Assembly (NCBI RefSeq): GCF_001652265.1
Contig: NZ_LWBS01000427.1
Span: 1-41,789 of the forward strand
Reading direction: 5' to 3'
Length of the DNA: 41,789 nt
Source: Rhizobium leguminosarum
Lineage (GTDB): Bacteria > Pseudomonadota > Alphaproteobacteria > Rhizobiales > Rhizobiaceae
Below, piece by piece: positions 21,721 to 34,830 of this stretch (positions are counted from its first letter, which is position 1; each line of letters begins with the position of its first letter). The notes under the pieces were generated by a model. It ran no database searches. It had not been told where the DNA came from and was given only the letters and a program-made list of their open reading frames with translations. The position numbers were made by a program, and so were the translations under genes.

Positions 21721-22683
21721 CTACTCCAGCAGGATCAGGATCTTGCTTGCGGCGGTGTTGAGGATCGAGATCGCTTCGACGGCCATCTGCTTCTGTGTTT
21801 CGATCGCCTTCTGCCGGATCGAAGCCTCATCCATGTCGGTATCGACGAGCGCACCGACGCTCTTATCGATCGAGTCGGACAAATCGGCGGTATAGTCGAT
21901 CTGATCGTCGATGCGCGTCTTCATCACGCCGATGGACGCCGCCGTCGTCGTCAGCGAGGAGAGCAGCGCGTCGGTCACGTCAAGCATGTCGGTAAGTTGC
22001 GCATCGGTCGTGCTCTTGCCAATCGCAATTTCCGTACCTGTCGCCGGCGTGGTGGAATTGGCGTTCAGCAGATAATAATTCCGCGACGTCGTGCCGCTGT
22101 TATTGATGGCGTTGGCATCGACCGGCTTGGTCAGCAGGCCGCCGCTCGCATTGTTCTTATCGACGAGAATGGTCTGCGAGGATGGGAAATCGATGGTCTG
22201 GGCCTGATATTCGCCGGTCGGAGCGCGCACGAAACCAGAGATGACCTGCCATGTCGGCGGCGCGGCGGTATCGCCGTTCAACAGCCAGTTTTCACCCGCA
22301 AACGACGTCGATTCGACGACAGTCTGCAGTTGCTCCTTGTATTCGCTGATCTCGGCGTTGATCTTGTCCTTGTCGGCGCCCGGCTCTCTTGCCGAAACCA
22401 ACTTGGCGCGAATGTCGCCTATGAGATCGATCGCCGAGTTCATCGCCGTGTAGGTCGCATCCACCTTGGCAGCGCCGAGACCGAGCGCATCTCCGATCGT
22501 TCCGAGATTGGTGCTGTCCGAGCGCATGACGGTCGCGACCGACCAGTAGGACGCATCGTCGGCGGCCGTCTCGATACGATATCCCGAGGACACCTGCTGT
22601 TGGGTCTGGTTGGCTTCTTTGTTGATGCTGCGCAGCACCGCAAGCGCATTCACCGCGGCCGCGCTGGTAATCTTAACGGTCAT
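21721..22683 (-). CDS. flaD: Flagellin, divergent member of the tandem set
   Basis: The 320-aa flagellin has conserved N- and C-terminal D0/D1 domains (LRSINKEANQTQQQVSSGYR, ASYWSVATVMRSDSTNLG; C-terminal IRQKAIETQKQMAVEAISIL). The variable middle differs from the other three, with RAPTGEYQAQTIDFPSSQ and an Asn/Thr-rich region. The other three flagellins are 301-303 aa and close to each other. The ATG at 22681-22683 is supported by the family N-terminus; an open frame extends to 22866. Names flaA to flaD follow gene order from fliP and are provisional. Confidence 0.9.
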   Translation of the reverse strand: MTVKITSAAAVNALAVLRSINKEANQTQQQVSSGYRIETAADDASYWSVATVMRSDSTNLGTIGDALGLGAAKVDATYTAMNSAIDLIGDIRAKLVSAREPGADKDKINAEISEYKEQLQTVVESTSFAGENWLLNGDTAAPPTWQVISGFVRAPTGEYQAQTIDFPSSQTILVDKNNASGGLLTKPVDANAINNSGTTSRNYYLLNANSTTPATGTEIAIGKSTTDAQLTDMLDVTDALLSSLTTTAASIGVMKTRIDDQIDYTADLSDSIDKSVGALVDTDMDEASIRQKAIETQKQMAVEAISILNTAASKILILLE

Positions 22684-22714
22684 CGACAGGTCTCGGAATC
22701 GGGGTGAAAGGGCA

Positions 22715-22752
22715 GGCCGGATTGCCGGCGGCGACTGAAGTGGCGTCATGCC
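22715..22752 (-). promoter_or_regulatory. Candidate promoter element of the divergent flagellin gene
   Basis: On the minus strand, GGCATGACGCCA is followed about 20 bases later by GCAATCCGGCC. This is a weaker version of the two-block motif upstream of the other three flagellins (GCATGANGCTG ... TCCGGNATGTCC). It ends 31 bp before the start codon. Confidence 0.4.
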
Positions 22753-22890
22753 TCCGGCAGAGTTTCTACCGGCGTGTCGCAAAAGCAAATCAACTCGAGG
22801 CGAAGTTAACTCGATAACAACCTGTTGGGCAAGAGCGCAGCACTGAGCCTGGCGCAGCGATCGCAATGCCGACCAAGGCTTTGATATAAA

Positions 22891-22983: not shown

Positions 22984-23895
22984 TTAGCTGCGGAACAGCG
23001 TGAGGATGTTCTGAGCGCTGGAGTTGGCGATCGACAGCGACTGGATGGCCAGCTGCTGCTGCGTTTGCAGCGCCGTCAGCTTGCTCGATTCCTCTTCCAT
23101 GTCGGCATCGACGAGGCGGCCGACGCCCGAATCGATCGAGTCGCTGAGCGCACCGACGAAATTTTCCTGCAGCTCGATGCGAGTGGAAATCGAGCCGAGC
23201 TGCGACGCAGCTTTGGTCATCGCTTCGAGGCCGGCCTCAATTGACGTCAGGGCCATGGCGATCTCAGGTGAGCCGAACGTGCTGATATCCATCGAGTAGA
23301 TCGAGCCGATTGTACCGGATGATGTGCCGAGAATGCCGGAGCTCGTCTCGATCGTGCCAGTCGAGGTCATGCCGAAGAGGACGTTGCCCGCGGAGCCCGA
23401 GTTCAGAATGTAGTCCGTTGTCTTGACCGAGACATTGCCGTTGCCATCGCGCACGAAGGTGGAAACGACGCTCTTGGTGCCGTCAGCGCCGGCAACCCAG
23501 TTTTCACCGGAGAAGGAAGCCGATTGCGCGATGCTCAGGAGCTGCTGCTGCAGCTGGCTGATTTCTTCCTGGATCTTGGTCTTGTCGACGCCCTTTTCGG
23601 TCGCGGCAACGATCTTCGCCTTGATTTCGCTGATGATGTCGATGGCACTGTCCATGGCAGAGTAAGCGGTGTCGACCTTGGCGGCGCCGAGGCCGAGAGC
23701 GTCGGAAACGGCGGAAAGTGCCTTGTTGTCCGAACGCATGGTCGTTGCGATCGACCAATAGGCGGCGTTATCGGCGGCCTTTTCGACGCGGTAACCCGAC
23801 GATACGTGGTTCTGCGTCGTCTCAAGGCTGTCGTTGATGCCGCGGAGTGTCTGAAGAGCGGCCATCGCCGCGACGTTCGTCAAAATGCTGGTCAT
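22984..23895 (-). CDS. flaC: Flagellin
   Basis: The 303-aa flagellin starts MTSILTNVAAMAALQTLRGI and contains VSSGYRVEKAADNAAYWSIA. It ends with the D0 helix LAIQSLSIANSSAQNILTLF. The central variable part is Ser/Thr/Gly rich (TSTGTIETSSGILGTSSGTI) and may be surface-exposed and modified. It has its own upstream motif (23930-23982) and its own terminator. It is more diverged from flaA and flaB at silent sites than those two are from each other. Confidence 0.95.
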   Translation of the reverse strand: MTSILTNVAAMAALQTLRGINDSLETTQNHVSSGYRVEKAADNAAYWSIATTMRSDNKALSAVSDALGLGAAKVDTAYSAMDSAIDIISEIKAKIVAATEKGVDKTKIQEEISQLQQQLLSIAQSASFSGENWVAGADGTKSVVSTFVRDGNGNVSVKTTDYILNSGSAGNVLFGMTSTGTIETSSGILGTSSGTIGSIYSMDISTFGSPEIAMALTSIEAGLEAMTKAASQLGSISTRIELQENFVGALSDSIDSGVGRLVDADMEEESSKLTALQTQQQLAIQSLSIANSSAQNILTLFRS

Positions 23896-24142: not shown

Positions 24143-25051
24143 TTAGCCGCGGAACAGCGTGAGGATGGTCTGCGAAGAGGAGTTCGCGATCGACAGCGAC
24201 TGGACCGCCAGCTGCTGCTGGGTCTGCAGGGCGCTGAGCTTGGAGGACTCTTCTTCCATGTTGGCATCGACGAGACGGCCGACACCGGAGTCGATCGAGT
24301 CGCTGAGGGCGGATACGAAGTTTTCCTGCAGTTCGATGCGCTTGGAGATCGAGCCGAGCTGAGCGCCGGCGCTGGTCATGGCCTTCAGAGCCGATTCAAC
24401 GTTGGTCAGAGCCGACTGGATCTGGCCGAGGGTGAAGTTGGTGATGTCCATTGCATAGACAGAACCGGTCGCACCATTCGAAGTACCGAGGATACCCGTG
24501 GAGGTTTCGACCGAGCCGTTGCTCATGCCGAACAGAACGTTGCCCGTGGAGCTGTCGTCGAGAATATAGTCGGTCATCACGACCGAAACGGCGTTGGAGC
24601 CGTCGCGGACGAACGAGGAGACGACGTTCTTGGTGCCGTCAGCGCCGGCAACCCAGTTTTCACCGGAGAAGGAAGCCGACTGAGCGACGCTCAGGAGCTG
24701 CTGCTGCAGCTGGCTGATTTCTTCCTGGACCTTGGCCTTGTCGACGCCGTTTTCAGTGGCGGCAACCAGCTTCGCCTTGATGTCGCCGACGACGTCGATG
24801 GCGCTGTCCATGGCGGAGTAAGCGGTGTCGACCTTTGCAGCGCCGAGGCCGAGAGCGTCGGAAACGGCGGAAAGTGCCTTGTTGTCAGAACGCATGGTCG
24901 TTGCGATCGACCAGTAAGCAGCGTTGTCGGAAGCCTTGCCGACGCGATAGCCGGACGAAACGTGGGCCTGGGTTTCCTGGAGACCCTGGTTGATGCCACG
25001 GAGAGTCTGGAGGGCTGCCATTGCAGCGTTATTGGTGTTGATGCTCGTCAT
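24143..25051 (-). CDS. flaB: Flagellin
   Basis: The 302-aa flagellin begins MTSINTNNAAMAALQTLRGI and ends LAVQSLSIANSSSQTILTLF. The D0/D1 terminal domains are nearly identical to FlaA. Two blocks of the gene are identical to flaA at the nucleotide level (24206-24307 and 24431-24546), while segments between differ. It is monocistronic, between its own upstream element and intrinsic terminator. It has no signal peptide, being exported through the flagellum. Confidence 0.95.
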   Translation of the reverse strand: MTSINTNNAAMAALQTLRGINQGLQETQAHVSSGYRVGKASDNAAYWSIATTMRSDNKALSAVSDALGLGAAKVDTAYSAMDSAIDVVGDIKAKLVAATENGVDKAKVQEEISQLQQQLLSVAQSASFSGENWVAGADGTKNVVSSFVRDGSNAVSVVMTDYILDDSSTGNVLFGMSNGSVETSTGILGTSNGATGSVYAMDITNFTLGQIQSALTNVESALKAMTSAGAQLGSISKRIELQENFVSALSDSIDSGVGRLVDANMEEESSKLSALQTQQQLAVQSLSIANSSSQTILTLFRG

Positions 25052-25332: not shown

Positions 25333-26238
25333 TTAGCGGAAGAGCGACAGGATGTTCTGCGAAGAGGAGTTCGCGATCGACAGCGACTGGATCGCCAGCT
25401 GCTGCTGGGTCTGCAGGGCGCTGAGCTTGGAGGACTCTTCTTCCATGTTGGCATCGACGAGACGGCCGACACCGGAGTCGATCGAGTCGCTGAGAGCGGA
25501 CACGAAGTTGTCCTGGGCGTCGATGCGGCTGGAGAGCGAACCGAGAGCAGCGCCGGCGCTGGTCATGGCCTTCAGAGCCGCTTCAACGTTGGTCAGAGCC
25601 GACGCGATCTGGCCGGAGGTGAAGTTGGTGATGTCCATTGCATAGACAGAACCGGTCGCACCATTCGAAGTACCGAGGATACCCGTGGAGGTTTCGACCG
25701 AGCCGTTGCTCATGCCGAACAGAACGTTGCCCGCAGAGCCGCTGTTGAGAACGTAGTCGGTCGTCTTGATCGAAACGGCGTTGGAGCCGTCGCGGACGAA
25801 CGAGGAGACGACGCTCTTGGTGCCGCTAGCGCCGGCAACCCAGTTTTCGCCGTTGAAGGAAGCCGACTGAGAGATGCTCAGCAGCTGCTGCTGCAGCTGG
25901 CCGATTTCTTCCTGGACCTTGGCCTTGTCGACGCCGTTTTCAGTGGCGGCAACCAGCTTCGCCTTGATGTCGCCGACGACGTCGATGGCGCTGTCCATGG
26001 CGGTGTAAGCGGTATCAACCTTGGCAGCGCCTACGCCGAGAGCGTCGGAAACGGCGGAAAGTGCCTTGTTGTCAGAACGCATGGTCGTTGCGATCGACCA
26101 GTAAGCGGCGTTGTCGGAAGCCTTTTCGACGCGATAGCCCGACGAAACGTGGTTCTGCGTCTGGTTGAGGCCCTGGTTGACGCTACGCAGCGTCTGGAGA
26201 GCGGCCTGTGCGGAAGTGTTCGTGTTAATGCTTGTCAT
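25333..26238 (-). CDS. flaA: Flagellin, first of the tandem set
   Basis: The 301-aa flagellin begins MTSINTNTSAQAALQTLRSV and ends LAIQSLSIANSSSQNILSLF. Conserved D1 motifs are VSSGYRVEKASDNAAYWSIA and RSDNKALSAVSDALGVGAAK. The central part (GMSNGSVETSTGILGTSNGA) is Ser/Thr rich. In related rhizobia FlaA is the principal filament protein. The gene is monocistronic and divergent from the glycosyltransferase gene, with a 444-bp shared upstream region. Confidence 0.95.
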   Translation of the reverse strand: MTSINTNTSAQAALQTLRSVNQGLNQTQNHVSSGYRVEKASDNAAYWSIATTMRSDNKALSAVSDALGVGAAKVDTAYTAMDSAIDVVGDIKAKLVAATENGVDKAKVQEEIGQLQQQLLSISQSASFNGENWVAGASGTKSVVSSFVRDGSNAVSIKTTDYVLNSGSAGNVLFGMSNGSVETSTGILGTSNGATGSVYAMDITNFTSGQIASALTNVEAALKAMTSAGAALGSLSSRIDAQDNFVSALSDSIDSGVGRLVDANMEEESSKLSALQTQQQLAIQSLSIANSSSQNILSLFR

Positions 26239-26271
26239 AAGTCTGTCCCCTGGAAAACTAGATACAAAAAG

Positions 26272-26319
26272 GAGGACATACCGGACTATAGTACCGGCGA
26301 TGACGGACCAGCTTCATGC
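26272..26319 (-). promoter_or_regulatory. Upstream element of flagellin flaA
   Basis: The minus strand reads GCATGAAGCTGGTC, 20 bases, then TCCGGTATGTCCTC, 34 bp before the flaA start. It matches the flaB and flaC elements except for the GTTAACAG part, which is replaced. A GGAGGACAT-like purine run nearer the start could serve the ribosome on this strand only weakly. Confidence 0.5.
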
Positions 26320-26682
26320 TACTCGGCGCCTTTTTTGTTTGGCCCAAACCCGTCATGTCCAGGGCAATTTCGCAGCCAATGCTTGCCAACTCCTTAAAAA
26401 TACAGGGCCTAAGCCGGCTCCTCGCAGGGCATAGTTAATGCTTGCTGAATATATTCCTTTGCATTCTAATTCTCTTGAAAACCAAGCGTTTCCCCTAGGC
26501 AAAAGTCGGCATTTCCCCGCGAAAACAGAGGTCATCAGGCGCACCGGTTTCAAGCAAGCTTCGAATGCCAATGTGGCAGGCGCCGGGATAGCACCATCGG
26601 ACCGATCCGCCCGTTTTGCGGAGGACGGCCTGTCCGTGCCTCGGCGGTCGACGCCAGAACATTTCCTTCACGGAGTTGGGTT
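26320..26682 (+). promoter_or_regulatory. Intergenic region with possible promoter of the GT41 gene
   Basis: I see no supportable gene here; an 82-codon plus-strand frame (26438-26686) has no family look and overlaps the next gene. A possible sigma-70-type promoter is TTGCTG (26442-26447), a 17-bp spacer, then TCTAAT (26465-26470). That would leave a leader of about 200 nt before the TTG start. GGAG at 26672-26675 is the probable ribosome-binding site. Confidence 0.3.
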
Positions 26683-28599
26683 TTGAACAGCAAAGTTTCG
26701 TTCTCTGCGGCATCCAAGGACTACCAGATGGGCCGCTACACACAGTCCTTGGCGACGCTCAATCAGCTGATGGATATTCAGCAAGACGCCAAGACCTATG
26801 CGCTGCTGGCCAAGAACCTCGTGCAGCTCGGCTTCAAGGCCGATGCCGCGAAAGCCTATGGCCTGGCCGGCAGCTGTGAAGGACCGAATTCCTACGAATA
26901 CCAGAAGCAGGCGGCCAAGCTGCACTACGAGACCGGCAGCGAGGACGATGCTCTGCTGATCGCCATGCGAAACCTTAGCAAGGCGCAGGAAGACCCGGAA
27001 CTCGCCTTCATCATCACCGCGATCTATTTGAAGCGCCAGCAGCGCGATATCATCCGCCCGTTCAAGACGGTGCTGTCGCAGAGTGCCAATCCCGATCATA
27101 TGCGCCTGGCGGCCCTGCTTCTGAGCGACGATCTGAACGACGCAACCAACCAGAGCCTGTCGCGCAACCTCTTCAAGCGGTTTCCAGGCAATCTCGCATT
27201 CCGCTTCCTGCATCTGGTTTTCGCCCGCGAATTCAATGAGTTCGAAGAGGCAAGCAAACATCAGGCGGTGATCGATGCCTCACTCGCAAAGGGCGATGTC
27301 GAGATCCTGCGCAAGGATAACCCGTTCTATCATCTGCACTGGTGCGGCAACGAGGATTTCAACCGATATGCGACGATCGGCACCACCCCCCTCAACCCGG
27401 AACGGGTGGCCTTCCGCAGAAACCAGCCGCACAGCTGGTCGGACAAGATCCGGATCGGCTACATGTCATCGGACTTCTGGGATCGCCACGCGACGATGAA
27501 GCTCTTGCAGCGCATCCTCGAACTGCACGACAAGGACCGGTTCGAGGTGACGCTCTTCTGCCATACAGGCCCTGAGTACCTCAAGCATAACAATACCGAC
27601 CGCAGCCGCTGGGGCCGGGTCGTCACCGTTCACGGCTTCTCCGACCAGGGGATGCTCGCAGCGGTACGCGAGCATAATATCGACATCATGGTCGACCTGA
27701 AGGGCCATACTTCGGGCAGCCGCGCGTCGGCCTTCAATTTGCCGCTCGCGCCGGTGCATGTCGGCTGGCTCGGTTTCCCCGGCAGCACGGTCAATATCGA
27801 TCTCGACTACGTCATTGGCGACCATTCGGTATTGCCCGAGGTGGCCAAGCCCTTCTACCATGAGAAATTCTGCCGGCTGCCGGAGAGCTATCAGCCGAAC
27901 GACCCGATGCATCGCCCGAAGCCGCGCCCTGTCACCCGCGAGCAGCTCGGCCTGCCGGAAGACGCCTTCATCTTCGCGTCCTTCAACGGCAACCGCAAAA
28001 TCACACCGGAGACGATCGACAGCTGGTGCCGCATTCTCAAGCGCGCGCCGAACAGCGTGCTCTGGCTGATGGCGAACACGCCGCGCAACCAGGCGAACCT
28101 CTTGAAGCAATTCCAGGCGGCAGGGATCTCCGGCAAGCGGATCATCTTCTGCCCGCGCGCGCCCTATGAAGAGCACATCGATCGTCAGCAGGCGGCCGAC
28201 ATCGGCATCGACACCTTCCCCGTCAACGGCCATACGACCACCTCGGAGCAACTCTGGGGCGGCCTGCCGGTCCTGACCGTCAAGGGCACCAACTTCGCCT
28301 CACGCGTCAGCGAGAGCCTGCTCAGGGCCATCGACCTGCCCGAACTCGTTGCAGCCGACCTGCAGGCCTATGAGGATCTTGCCGTCGAACTGGCGCAAAA
28401 CCCCGCGCGGATCGCGCAATACAAGGCGCATCTCAAGGAGAAGCGCTATATCGCGCCGCTCTTCGATGCCGAACGGTTCTGCGACCATCTGGAGCAGGCC
28501 TATGAAGTCATGGCCGACCGTGCCAAGCAGGGTCTTGCACCCGATCACATGGACATTCCGGCGCTGCCGCCGCGCACGGCGCCGTTCGCGGCCGAGTGA
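26683..28599 (+). CDS. TPR / GT41 O-GlcNAc-transferase-like (SPINDLY-type) protein glycosyltransferase
   Basis: The 638-aa cytoplasmic protein has TPR-like helices (about 8-200) and a GT41 catalytic domain (about 250-600). Hallmarks are IRIGYMSSDFWDRHATMKL (H269, at the site of human OGT H498), MVDLKGHTSGSR, VGWLGFPGST..DYVIGD, FNGNRKITPETIDSWCRILK (K439, at the site of human OGT K842) and NGHTTTSEQLWGGLP. The family moves a sugar from a nucleotide donor to Ser/Thr. It is the only plus-strand gene among the flagellins and fliP, so flagellin is the likely substrate. I chose the TTG start because GGAG lies 7 nt upstream and the first TPR helix is then complete; ATG at 26728 is the alternative. 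Confidence 0.85.
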   Translation: MNSKVSFSAASKDYQMGRYTQSLATLNQLMDIQQDAKTYALLAKNLVQLGFKADAAKAYGLAGSCEGPNSYEYQKQAAKLHYETGSEDDALLIAMRNLSKAQEDPELAFIITAIYLKRQQRDIIRPFKTVLSQSANPDHMRLAALLLSDDLNDATNQSLSRNLFKRFPGNLAFRFLHLVFAREFNEFEEASKHQAVIDASLAKGDVEILRKDNPFYHLHWCGNEDFNRYATIGTTPLNPERVAFRRNQPHSWSDKIRIGYMSSDFWDRHATMKLLQRILELHDKDRFEVTLFCHTGPEYLKHNNTDRSRWGRVVTVHGFSDQGMLAAVREHNIDIMVDLKGHTSGSRASAFNLPLAPVHVGWLGFPGSTVNIDLDYVIGDHSVLPEVAKPFYHEKFCRLPESYQPNDPMHRPKPRPVTREQLGLPEDAFIFASFNGNRKITPETIDSWCRILKRAPNSVLWLMANTPRNQANLLKQFQAAGISGKRIIFCPRAPYEEHIDRQQAADIGIDTFPVNGHTTTSEQLWGGLPVLTVKGTNFASRVSESLLRAIDLPELVAADLQAYEDLAVELAQNPARIAQYKAHLKEKRYIAPLFDAERFCDHLEQAYEVMADRAKQGLAPDHMDIPALPPRTAPFAAE

Positions 28600-28684
28600 G
28601 GGCTTTTCGACCACTACACAGCGCCGCGCGTCTTTCAGACGCTTAAAGGACGTTTTAGCATCTCGAATTGCGGCACAATTAAAG

Positions 28685-28710
28685 AACCCGCCGGAGCGAT
28701 CCGGCGGGTT
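28685..28710. terminator. Bidirectional terminator between the GT41 gene and fliP
   Basis: The 11-bp perfect stem AACCCGCCGGA / TCCGGCGGGTT has a GCGA loop. It lies between the convergent 3-prime ends. TTCTCATT follows on the plus strand and CTTTAATT on the minus strand, so it could stop transcripts from both sides. Confidence 0.82.
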
Positions 28711-28742
28711 TCTCATTGACCAATTCAAGCGGCGGCAGCCGG

Positions 28743-29480
28743 TCAGTTGAACGAGCGCACCAGGCTGCCGACCAGCAGGTTCCAGCCGTCGATCAGCACG
28801 AAGAAGAGGATCTTGAAAGGCAGCGAGATCGAGGTCGGCGGCAGCATCATCATGCCCATCGCCATGGTGATGGTCGCGACGATCAGGTCGATGACGAGGA
28901 ACGGAAGCACGACGAGGAAGCCGATCTCGAAGCCGCGGCGAATTTCCGAAATCATGAAGGCCGGGATCAGCACGCGGTAGTCGATCGGATTGGTCGTCTG
29001 GATATTCTGTCCGCGTTCGCGCGCCAGATCGACGAAGAGCGCCAAATCCTTGTCGCGGGTATTGGCCGCCATGAAAGTGCGGAACGGTTCGGCGATACGC
29101 TGGACCGCCTCGGTCTCGTTGATCTGATTAGCCAGCAGCGGCTGCACGCCGTTCTGCCAGGCCTGATCGAAGGTCGGCGACATGACGTAGAAGGTCATGA
29201 ACAGCGACAGTGACAAAAGGATCATGTTGGAAGGCGTCGAGGAGAGGCCCATCCCTGAGCGCAGGATCGAGAAGGCAATGATGAAGCGCGGGAAGCTCGT
29301 CACCATGATCAGGATGCCCGGCGCGACCGAAAGAATGGTCAGCAGGCCGAATGTGCGGATGATCCAGGCGGCGACGGAGCCATCGACCGGGACGTTCAAC
29401 AAGTCAGTCGGCAGCTGCTGTGCCACCGCCAGTTCCGGTACCGCCATCATGGCGGCAAGGAAAACTATGAGACGAATCAT
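28743..29480 (-). CDS. fliP: Flagellar export gate protein FliP
   Basis: FliP is the core of the FliPQR export pore. The 245-aa protein has a cleavable-looking N-terminal segment (MIRLIVFLAAMMAVPELAVA), typical for FliP, and three further membrane segments. Family signatures are PRFIIAFSILRSGMGLSSTP, NMILLSLSLFMTFYVM and LIPAFMISEIRRGFEIGF. It is the last gene of the flgB operon and overlaps fliL as ATGA (29477-29480). Confidence 0.96.
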   Translation of the reverse strand: MIRLIVFLAAMMAVPELAVAQQLPTDLLNVPVDGSVAAWIIRTFGLLTILSVAPGILIMVTSFPRFIIAFSILRSGMGLSSTPSNMILLSLSLFMTFYVMSPTFDQAWQNGVQPLLANQINETEAVQRIAEPFRTFMAANTRDKDLALFVDLARERGQNIQTTNPIDYRVLIPAFMISEIRRGFEIGFLVVLPFLVIDLIVATITMAMGMMMLPPTSISLPFKILFFVLIDGWNLLVGSLVRSFN

Positions 29481-34437: not shown

Positions 34438-34830
34438 TTACTTCCTGACGGTCATCAACATCATGCGGTTGAAGGAACTGACCAGCGAGGTGTTCAGATC
34501 GTACTGGCGCTTGATATCGCCCGACTTGGAAAGCTCCTCGGCCAAACCGACCGTATTGCCGGATTCCTGGACGCCGATTTCCTGGTCGAGTGCGGCCTCC
34601 TTGACGTCGATATCGCCGCTGTTGCTGAAATCGTTACCGCTGAGATGCGCCGGATTGGTGCGCGCCATGGCGATGTCGGACTTGTCGAGCACCGCGTCAA
34701 AGGGCGTGACGTCCTTGGCGTGGAACTTCGGGGTATTGGCATTCGCGATGTTGCCGGCAACAACCTGCTGACGGATCGTCAGCCATTCCGCCTGTCGCGA
34801 AGCCAAGTCGAAAAGTTGGATCGGTTGCAT
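34438..34830 (-). CDS. flgB: Proximal rod protein FlgB
   Basis: The 130-aa protein [20 protein letters not shown] carries [20 protein letters not shown] and a C-terminal [16 protein letters not shown] helix, as in FlgB. It is the first gene of the ten-gene operon ending with fliP. A terminator for the preceding unit lies about 110 bp upstream, so a separate promoter must lie in 34831-34943. Confidence 0.95.

Follow-up and report, generated by a model that had tools for sequence, protein, structure and literature searches.

A GT41 glycosyltransferase gene beside the flagellin genes of Rhizobium leguminosarum as a candidate flagellin O-glycosyltransferase

A GT41 gene between flaA and fliP

We analyzed a stretch of 41,789 nucleotides from Rhizobium leguminosarum (contig NZ_LWBS01000427.1 of assembly GCF_001652265.1, hereafter the window), in which a gene for a GT41 (OGT/SPINDLY-like) glycosyltransferase lies among flagellar genes. 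The coding sequence (26683..28599, plus strand) begins with a TTG codon, has no internal stop and encodes a protein of 638 amino acids (aa) that matches PF13844 with an E value of 3.4e-73 and 247.2 bits against a cut-off of 25 (Pfam). On its 5′ side, on the minus strand, are three genes identified as flagellins by Pfam, whose products are the probable acceptors: flaA (25333..26238, 301 aa), flaB (24143..25051, 302 aa) and flaC (22984..23895, 303 aa). On its 3′ side is the convergent fliP (28743..29480, minus strand), which encodes the flagellar export gate protein. An earlier note on this DNA had described a GT41 gene with the catalytic His and Lys set between flaA and fliP against the direction of its neighbors, and the analysis confirms each of these points. 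In addition to the four flagellins and fliP, the minus strand carries fliL, flgH and flgI, as well as flgA, fliE and three rod-type genes (named flgG, flgC and flgB by position), reaching position 34830. FlaF and FlbT are also encoded within the window. Elsewhere in its genome, two plasmid replication regions have their best matches in Rhizobium plasmids.

The GT41 protein is predicted to consist of a helical N-terminus and a GT-B catalytic domain. Residues 1-245 (26683..27417, plus strand) are tetratricopeptide repeat (TPR)-like: the AlphaFold2 model shows consecutive helices spanning residues 7-247, while the best Pfam TPR score is 19.7 bits, under the cut-off of 25, such that the "full TPR" of the earlier note holds in part. 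The GT-B domain (approximately residues 255-615; 27445..28527, plus strand) contains His269, Lys439, His498, Arg501, His517-Thr518-Thr519 and Glu522. His269 aligns with the His of the "NHPT" motif of human OGT (hOGT) and of the "AHPT" motif of XcOGT, and Lys439 aligns with the Lys of hOGT "NQLYK"; in hOGT numbering, the catalytic residues are H498 and K842. Both are invariant in all 19 aligned sequences, the window's included. Of the 19 rows of the flagellin clade (L201 counted, the window not), 18 or 19 retain the residues corresponding to the uridine diphosphate (UDP) contacts (His498, Arg501 and His517-Thr518-Thr519).

The closest folds to the model are XcOGT, human OGT and SPINDLY, pointing to a GT-B fold like that of the solved OGTs. 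With human OGT and Arabidopsis SPINDLY the protein shares the GT41 family, the catalytic His and Lys, and the combination of predicted helical repeats with GT-B, and its identity to XcOGT (XCC0866, PDB 2JLB and relatives) is ~26% over the structural alignment. It differs from human OGT in lacking the stretch of ~120 residues between the two aligned catalytic halves, and in having Glu522 in place of the hOGT Asp that follows the HTT motif. This Glu marks the clade: it is present in 19/19 flagellin-clade rows, whereas Asp occupies the position in 26/28 rows of close paralogues and in 5/5 rows of a second GT41 paralogue; it recurs in 8/9 rows of two divergent flagellum-linked groups from other families. 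GT41 is the sole Pfam domain in the protein, so that no methyltransferase domain is fused to it, and there is no Pfam match to the MptE-like, Maf-type domain PF01973.

The 444-bp divergent region between flaA and the GT41 gene (26239..26682) contains two conserved blocks, the longer toward flaA and the shorter toward GT41, and a GGAG ribosome-binding site (26672..26675, plus strand) precedes the start codon. The assigned start is borne out by comparison: among 52 named flagellin-locus orthologues, TTG is the start in 50 (ATG in the other two) and GGAG lies no more than 18 nt 5′ of the start in 50. No sigma-70-type site was found in 26100-28900. The convergent GT41 and fliP genes are separated by an inverted repeat (28685..28710) with a terminator-like score for the minus strand only, and such repeats were no more frequent than in shuffled sequence. 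The fourth flagellin, FlaD-like, is listed as an open reading frame of 381 aa (21721..22866, minus strand) with its flagellin domain starting at residue 67. It has a Met at residue 62, most relatives are 319-342 aa long by first ATG, and its annotated start is probably too early.

Pairing with flagellins across genomes

To assess how widely the gene occurs, we surveyed 100 Rhizobium genomes (G000-G099, the window's own included) and found a flagellin-locus GT41 orthologue with at least 55% identity in 98 of them, the poorly assembled G003 showing residues 37-637 only. The two genomes without it are G035 and G065; FliP is present in all 100. The matches in G015, G032, G043, G064 and G068, flagged with one TGA each, are not broken genes, the TGA being the final codon and natural stop in 5/5. 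Wherever GT41 and fliP share a contig (97 genomes) they are convergent, with at most 400 bp between them in 89; G075 has a gap of 10.8 kb and G025 one of 12.5 kb. The gap is ~1.24 kb in five genomes (G034, G047, G055, G056 and G071), and its median is ~0.1 kb.

The pairing with flagellins is similarly consistent. Among 57 loci (L003-L059), 41 encode a protein with at least 47.5% identity, and 40 of these have a divergent flagellin start 245-490 bp upstream, the exception being L034 in G110. Two further loci (40-41% identity) also have a divergent upstream flagellin, and the remaining 14 (43-47% identity) have no flagellin within 1.5 kb. A scan of contigs from named genomes yielded another 60 loci (L228-L287), in 52 of which (L228-L279) a flagellin lies on the opposite strand 267-486 bp upstream of GT41; the other eight (L280-L287, 43-48% identity) show no upstream flagellin in the stretches covered, of at most 6 kb. 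FliP is within the stretch in 50 named loci, and two Agrobacterium loci (L275, L278) have the flagellin and no adjacent fliP. Counting these two, GT41 is parted from fliP and still adjoins flagellins in L062, L063, L067-L070, L275 and L278. As the gene stays with flagellins when fliP is elsewhere, it is linked to the flagellins and not to the export genes, and its position next to them is no chance neighborhood. The earlier note gives fliP and flaA as direct neighbors in the Sinorhizobium cluster; in 23 chosen loci where GT41 does not intervene, the distance from fliP to the next flagellin is 216-563 bp in 21, and 1.5 and 1.8 kb in the other two (L210, L216).

A tree built from 91 GT41 sequences places the flagellin-locus proteins of Rhizobiaceae in a single clade (20 rows) with a Shimodaira-Hasegawa-like approximate likelihood ratio test (SH-aLRT) support of 99. 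Of its rows 19 are labelled flagellar, and its closest kin are non-flagellar paralogues. Flagellar linkage requires five changes on this tree versus ~30 with shuffled labels, a contrast inflated by near copies. Beyond the genus, 16 of 199 family genomes carry a gene of this clade (13 assigned by the tree, and G017, G074 and G237 by identity and locus), and all 16 have FliP.

Acceptor, donor and competing explanations

Flagellin glycosylation has previously been considered in this species. Flagellins of strains 3841 and VF39SM stain with Pro-Q Emerald, and those of 3841 migrate above their predicted mass, as described in the available text of PMC2936354, where the flagellins are termed possibly glycosylated; the earlier note's statement that R. 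leguminosarum flagellins are reported to be glycosylated is borne out as to the stain, with the authors' own wording more guarded. In that available text the only occurrence of "transferase" is in the reference list, and "enzyme" does not occur. Strain 3841 (R. johnstonii; formerly R. leguminosarum bv. viciae) carries the GT41 gene (L233 on NC_008380; G039). In the available part of PMC2275737 its FliP is RL0716 and its flagellin RL0718, so by position the GT41 gene should be RL0717, a name that we found in no open-licence PMC paper. Moreover, no publication on a GT41 enzyme of Rhizobium flagellin was found among open-licence PMC papers, a search that most subscription papers lie outside. The GT41 protein could be the unnamed enzyme behind the glycosylation reported for strain 3841, and a single gene, RL0717 by position, makes this open question testable.

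We consider it likely that the GT41 gene product is a dedicated flagellin O-glycosyltransferase. This interpretation is supported by the conserved divergent pairing with flagellin, the OGT-like fold and donor pocket, and the presence of the gene in strain 3841, and a dedicated OGT-family enzyme, as the earlier note proposed, remains the best reading of the locus. We infer that flagellin is the substrate, that the linkage is to oxygen, that the donor is UDP-N-acetylglucosamine (UDP-GlcNAc) and that modification precedes export. Under this model, the enzyme would be cytoplasmic, with its helical N-terminus holding newly made FlaA, FlaB and FlaC; the GT-B domain would bind a UDP-sugar, with UDP-GlcNAc as a first guess, and the sugar would be moved to Ser or Thr residues of the exposed flagellin center before the flagellin leaves via FliP and the flagellar secretion gate. 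If correct, this would explain the means by which a legume symbiont changes a polymer on its surface that plants and flagellotropic phages meet, and would provide a small bacterial relative of OGT whose acceptor is defined and abundant.

Several observations weigh against a dedicated flagellin enzyme. G035 and G065 retain flagellin and fliP genes despite having no GT41. In G110 (L034/L201) the clade gene lies apart from the flagellins, the one such case found. FliP is present in 158/199 family genomes versus the clade gene in 16/199, so most fliP-bearing relatives lack the gene. No upstream motif common to GT41 and flaA, flaB or flaC rose above shuffled controls by a crude method. Close paralogues adjoin the zinc-uptake gene znuA and not flagellins, and the wider family is thus not flagellin-specific. 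The flagellins themselves also give no sign of the enzyme in their Ser and Thr content. The centers of the window's four flagellins contain 25-29% Ser+Thr versus 17-21% elsewhere in the protein, as the earlier note had remarked, but enrichment does not track the enzyme: the Ser/Thr fraction of flagellin centers is 0.270 with GT41 and 0.265 without (p 0.54; 17 and 21 loci, excluding two that are close to the second paralogue). Similarly, no position passed a test for Ser/Thr in at least 80% of flagellins from loci with GT41 and at most 40% of those from loci without it (41 versus 73 sequences, leaving out FlaD-like sequences and L079, L090, L212 and L213).

Flagellin length varies with GT41 in part. 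Flagellin centers are shorter at loci with GT41 (mean 119 versus 140 residues, p 0.0009, the loci not being independent), and FlaA, FlaB and FlaC of the measured carriers within the genus are ~285-330 aa. The two Rhizobium genomes without GT41 encode three (L060, G065) and two (L061, G035) flagellins of 397-434 aa, with centers resembling those of other genera more than those of the 300-aa type, and are natural comparisons for the role of the gene. In G110, the flagellins (L095) directly follow fliP and reach 405 aa. As a correlate of GT41, length was rejected: L079 and L090 have GT41 together with flagellins of 391-437 aa, and many loci without GT41 have flagellins of 304-345 aa. Since the rule is broken both ways outside the genus, we report it and do not use it.

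Among the alternatives, the enzyme may instead modify another protein, such as an export substrate, chaperone or regulator, and merely share the flagellar locus. FlaF and FlbT are encoded in the same window, and the paralogues beside znuA and beside ALTTAQ-repeat proteins (below) suggest that GT41 partners vary. We regard this as unlikely, as a flagellin is the gene's immediate divergent neighbor in 40/41 loci and accompanies it where fliP does not.

A further alternative follows from FlmG of Caulobacter crescentus, a TPR and GT-B flagellin transferase that uses pseudaminic acid, binds flagellin through its TPR part and has several flagellin paralogues as its cytoplasmic substrates, as set out in the available part of PMC7591256. 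By this published description, FlmG resembles the GT41 protein in having a helical N-terminus and a GT-B C-terminus encoded beside flagellin genes, and the Caulobacter vibrioides genome used as a control has a PF13844 match. An FlmG-type enzyme would use a cytidine monophosphate (CMP)-sugar to add a nonulosonic acid (pseudaminic or legionaminic) to flagellin; the layout and locus type would suit it, and NeuB, of the nonulosonic acid pathway, was matched in 30/100 genus genomes, every one a GT41 carrier, with a NeuB-like match also in L138. FlmG requires pseudaminic acid, whereas most GT41 carriers show no NeuB match and retain the UDP pocket. No NeuB match was found in 68/98 carriers, strain 3841 (G039) included, and a nonulosonic acid donor therefore cannot be general for the enzyme. 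No NeuB match was found in G000 either, an assembly of 472 contigs with a completeness of 93%, and one is present in the closely similar G067. The missing NeuB and the intact UDP-contact residues together make a UDP-sugar the probable donor, in contrast to FlmG, and we consider an FlmG-type activity highly improbable. Within the preferred interpretation as a flagellin O-glycosyltransferase, the odds that the donor is UDP-GlcNAc are about even.

Divergent GT41-like proteins offer a comparison on this point. In L175, L178 and L179 their genes have NeuB-like and Maf-like neighbors, together with flagellins or FlbT, and these three look like the FlmG type, which is known here from publications alone. 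The five-row group to which they belong (L175-L179) has lost most UDP-pocket residues, although rows this divergent cannot be aligned with certainty. Identification of these five proteins near FlbT as FlmG itself was not justified, and the division is not a clean one: L138, a flagellin locus with another GT41 type, also has a NeuB-like match (35% identity). For Maf flagellin glycosyltransferases the proposed role is shared and the family is different; PF01973 exceeded its cut-off in 0/100 genus genomes, with four weak matches.

Transfer of glucose to the N-X-S/T sites of flagellin by an enzyme of the HMW1C/N-glucosyltransferase (NGT) type can be given little credence. NGTs also belong to GT41 and the flagellins have two to four N-X-S/T motifs (PMC2936354, available text), and the match to NCBIfam NF049992 is weak, at 28.8 bits against a cut-off of 1000. 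It is equally hard to credit a protein whose main role is to regulate the expression or export of flagellin, binding flagellin or a partner via its repeats with a minor enzymatic role, in view of conserved catalytic and donor residues that a pure regulator would not need. GmaR of Listeria is said to combine regulator and enzyme roles.

Known flagellin enzymes and GT41 paralogues

GT41 enzymes have been linked to flagellin before. Enterobacterial flagellin glycosylation islands encode GT41 proteins with a SPINDLY-family domain (11 distinct enzymes; 198 strains), mostly with methyltransferase domains and with a GlcNAc-type donor proposed (PMC4875605, in the part available). Both they and the Rhizobium protein have a SPINDLY-family O-GlcNAc transferase domain in flagellin loci; the enterobacterial proteins are island members, mostly fused to methyltransferases, whereas the Rhizobium gene stands alone and encodes no second Pfam domain. 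With these enzymes and FlmG in print, this kind of enzyme is already known, and the new function suggested in the earlier note is less new than was supposed, as far as the available parts of PMC4875605 and PMC7591256 go. As far as our searches of open-licence papers show, three points are new: the enzyme in Rhizobium, its occurrence as a single-gene locus in nearly all genomes of the genus, and the fact that it does not depend on NeuB.

A second GT41 of ~690 aa, with 33-37% identity over the catalytic part, is found in 35/100 genus genomes. Proteins with ALTTAQ repeats (PF20080, E no greater than 1e-8) are found in 38/100, and the second GT41 occurs in 35 of these 38 genomes and in 0/62 of the others (Fisher p 7.7e-24, uncorrected for kinship). 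Among the matches listed, 32 genomes give a place for the ALTTAQ gene, which in 25 is at most 7 kb from GT41 on the same contig and in the other seven is on another contig only. A giant ALTTAQ-repeat protein adjoins the second GT41 in L185, L186, L187, L189 and L212 (by Pfam) and in L213 (by reading); in L188 it has no such neighbor. Collectively, these neighbors indicate that GT41 paralogues here tend to adjoin one particular large or polymer-forming protein.

UDP-galactopyranose mutase (GLF) genes also lie beside the second GT41, in L188 (5521-6678) and L212 (6298-7455) by Pfam and in L186, L187 and L213 by reading. The sugar of the second paralogue may accordingly differ, and the adjoining GLF genes hint at galactofuranose as a possible donor. 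Tentatively, and with more doubt than confidence, the GT41 proteins of Rhizobiaceae might be viewed as acceptor-paired O-glycosyltransferases, each encoded next to a single repetitive or polymer-forming target, with the flagellin enzyme adding a simple UDP-sugar, plausibly O-GlcNAc, to flagella and the second paralogue acting on the ALTTAQ protein, perhaps with another sugar. If true, they would represent a bacterial O-GlcNAc-like system for large assemblies and not for nucleocytoplasmic signaling.

In other Rhizobiaceae genera, GT41 paralogues lie at or close to a zinc-uptake set comprising znuA and ABC transporter genes (L072, L075, L076, L081-L086 and L088), with ZnuA verified by Pfam in all three loci examined (L072, L083 and L088). 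Across the class, GT41 was found in 92 and FlbT in 81 of 240 genomes, among the matches listed. FlbT, FlaF or a flagellin is also encoded in the GT41 stretch in 17/23 class genomes, the 17 coming from 15 family codes; this is no rate, the 23 having been picked mostly for apparent closeness to FlbT among the matches listed; the stretches of the other six (G316, G342, G425, G467, G497 and G512) are without these genes. One locus in G488 (L137, L138) contains seven flagellin-like stretches, at least four GT41-like genes and a NeuB-like match.
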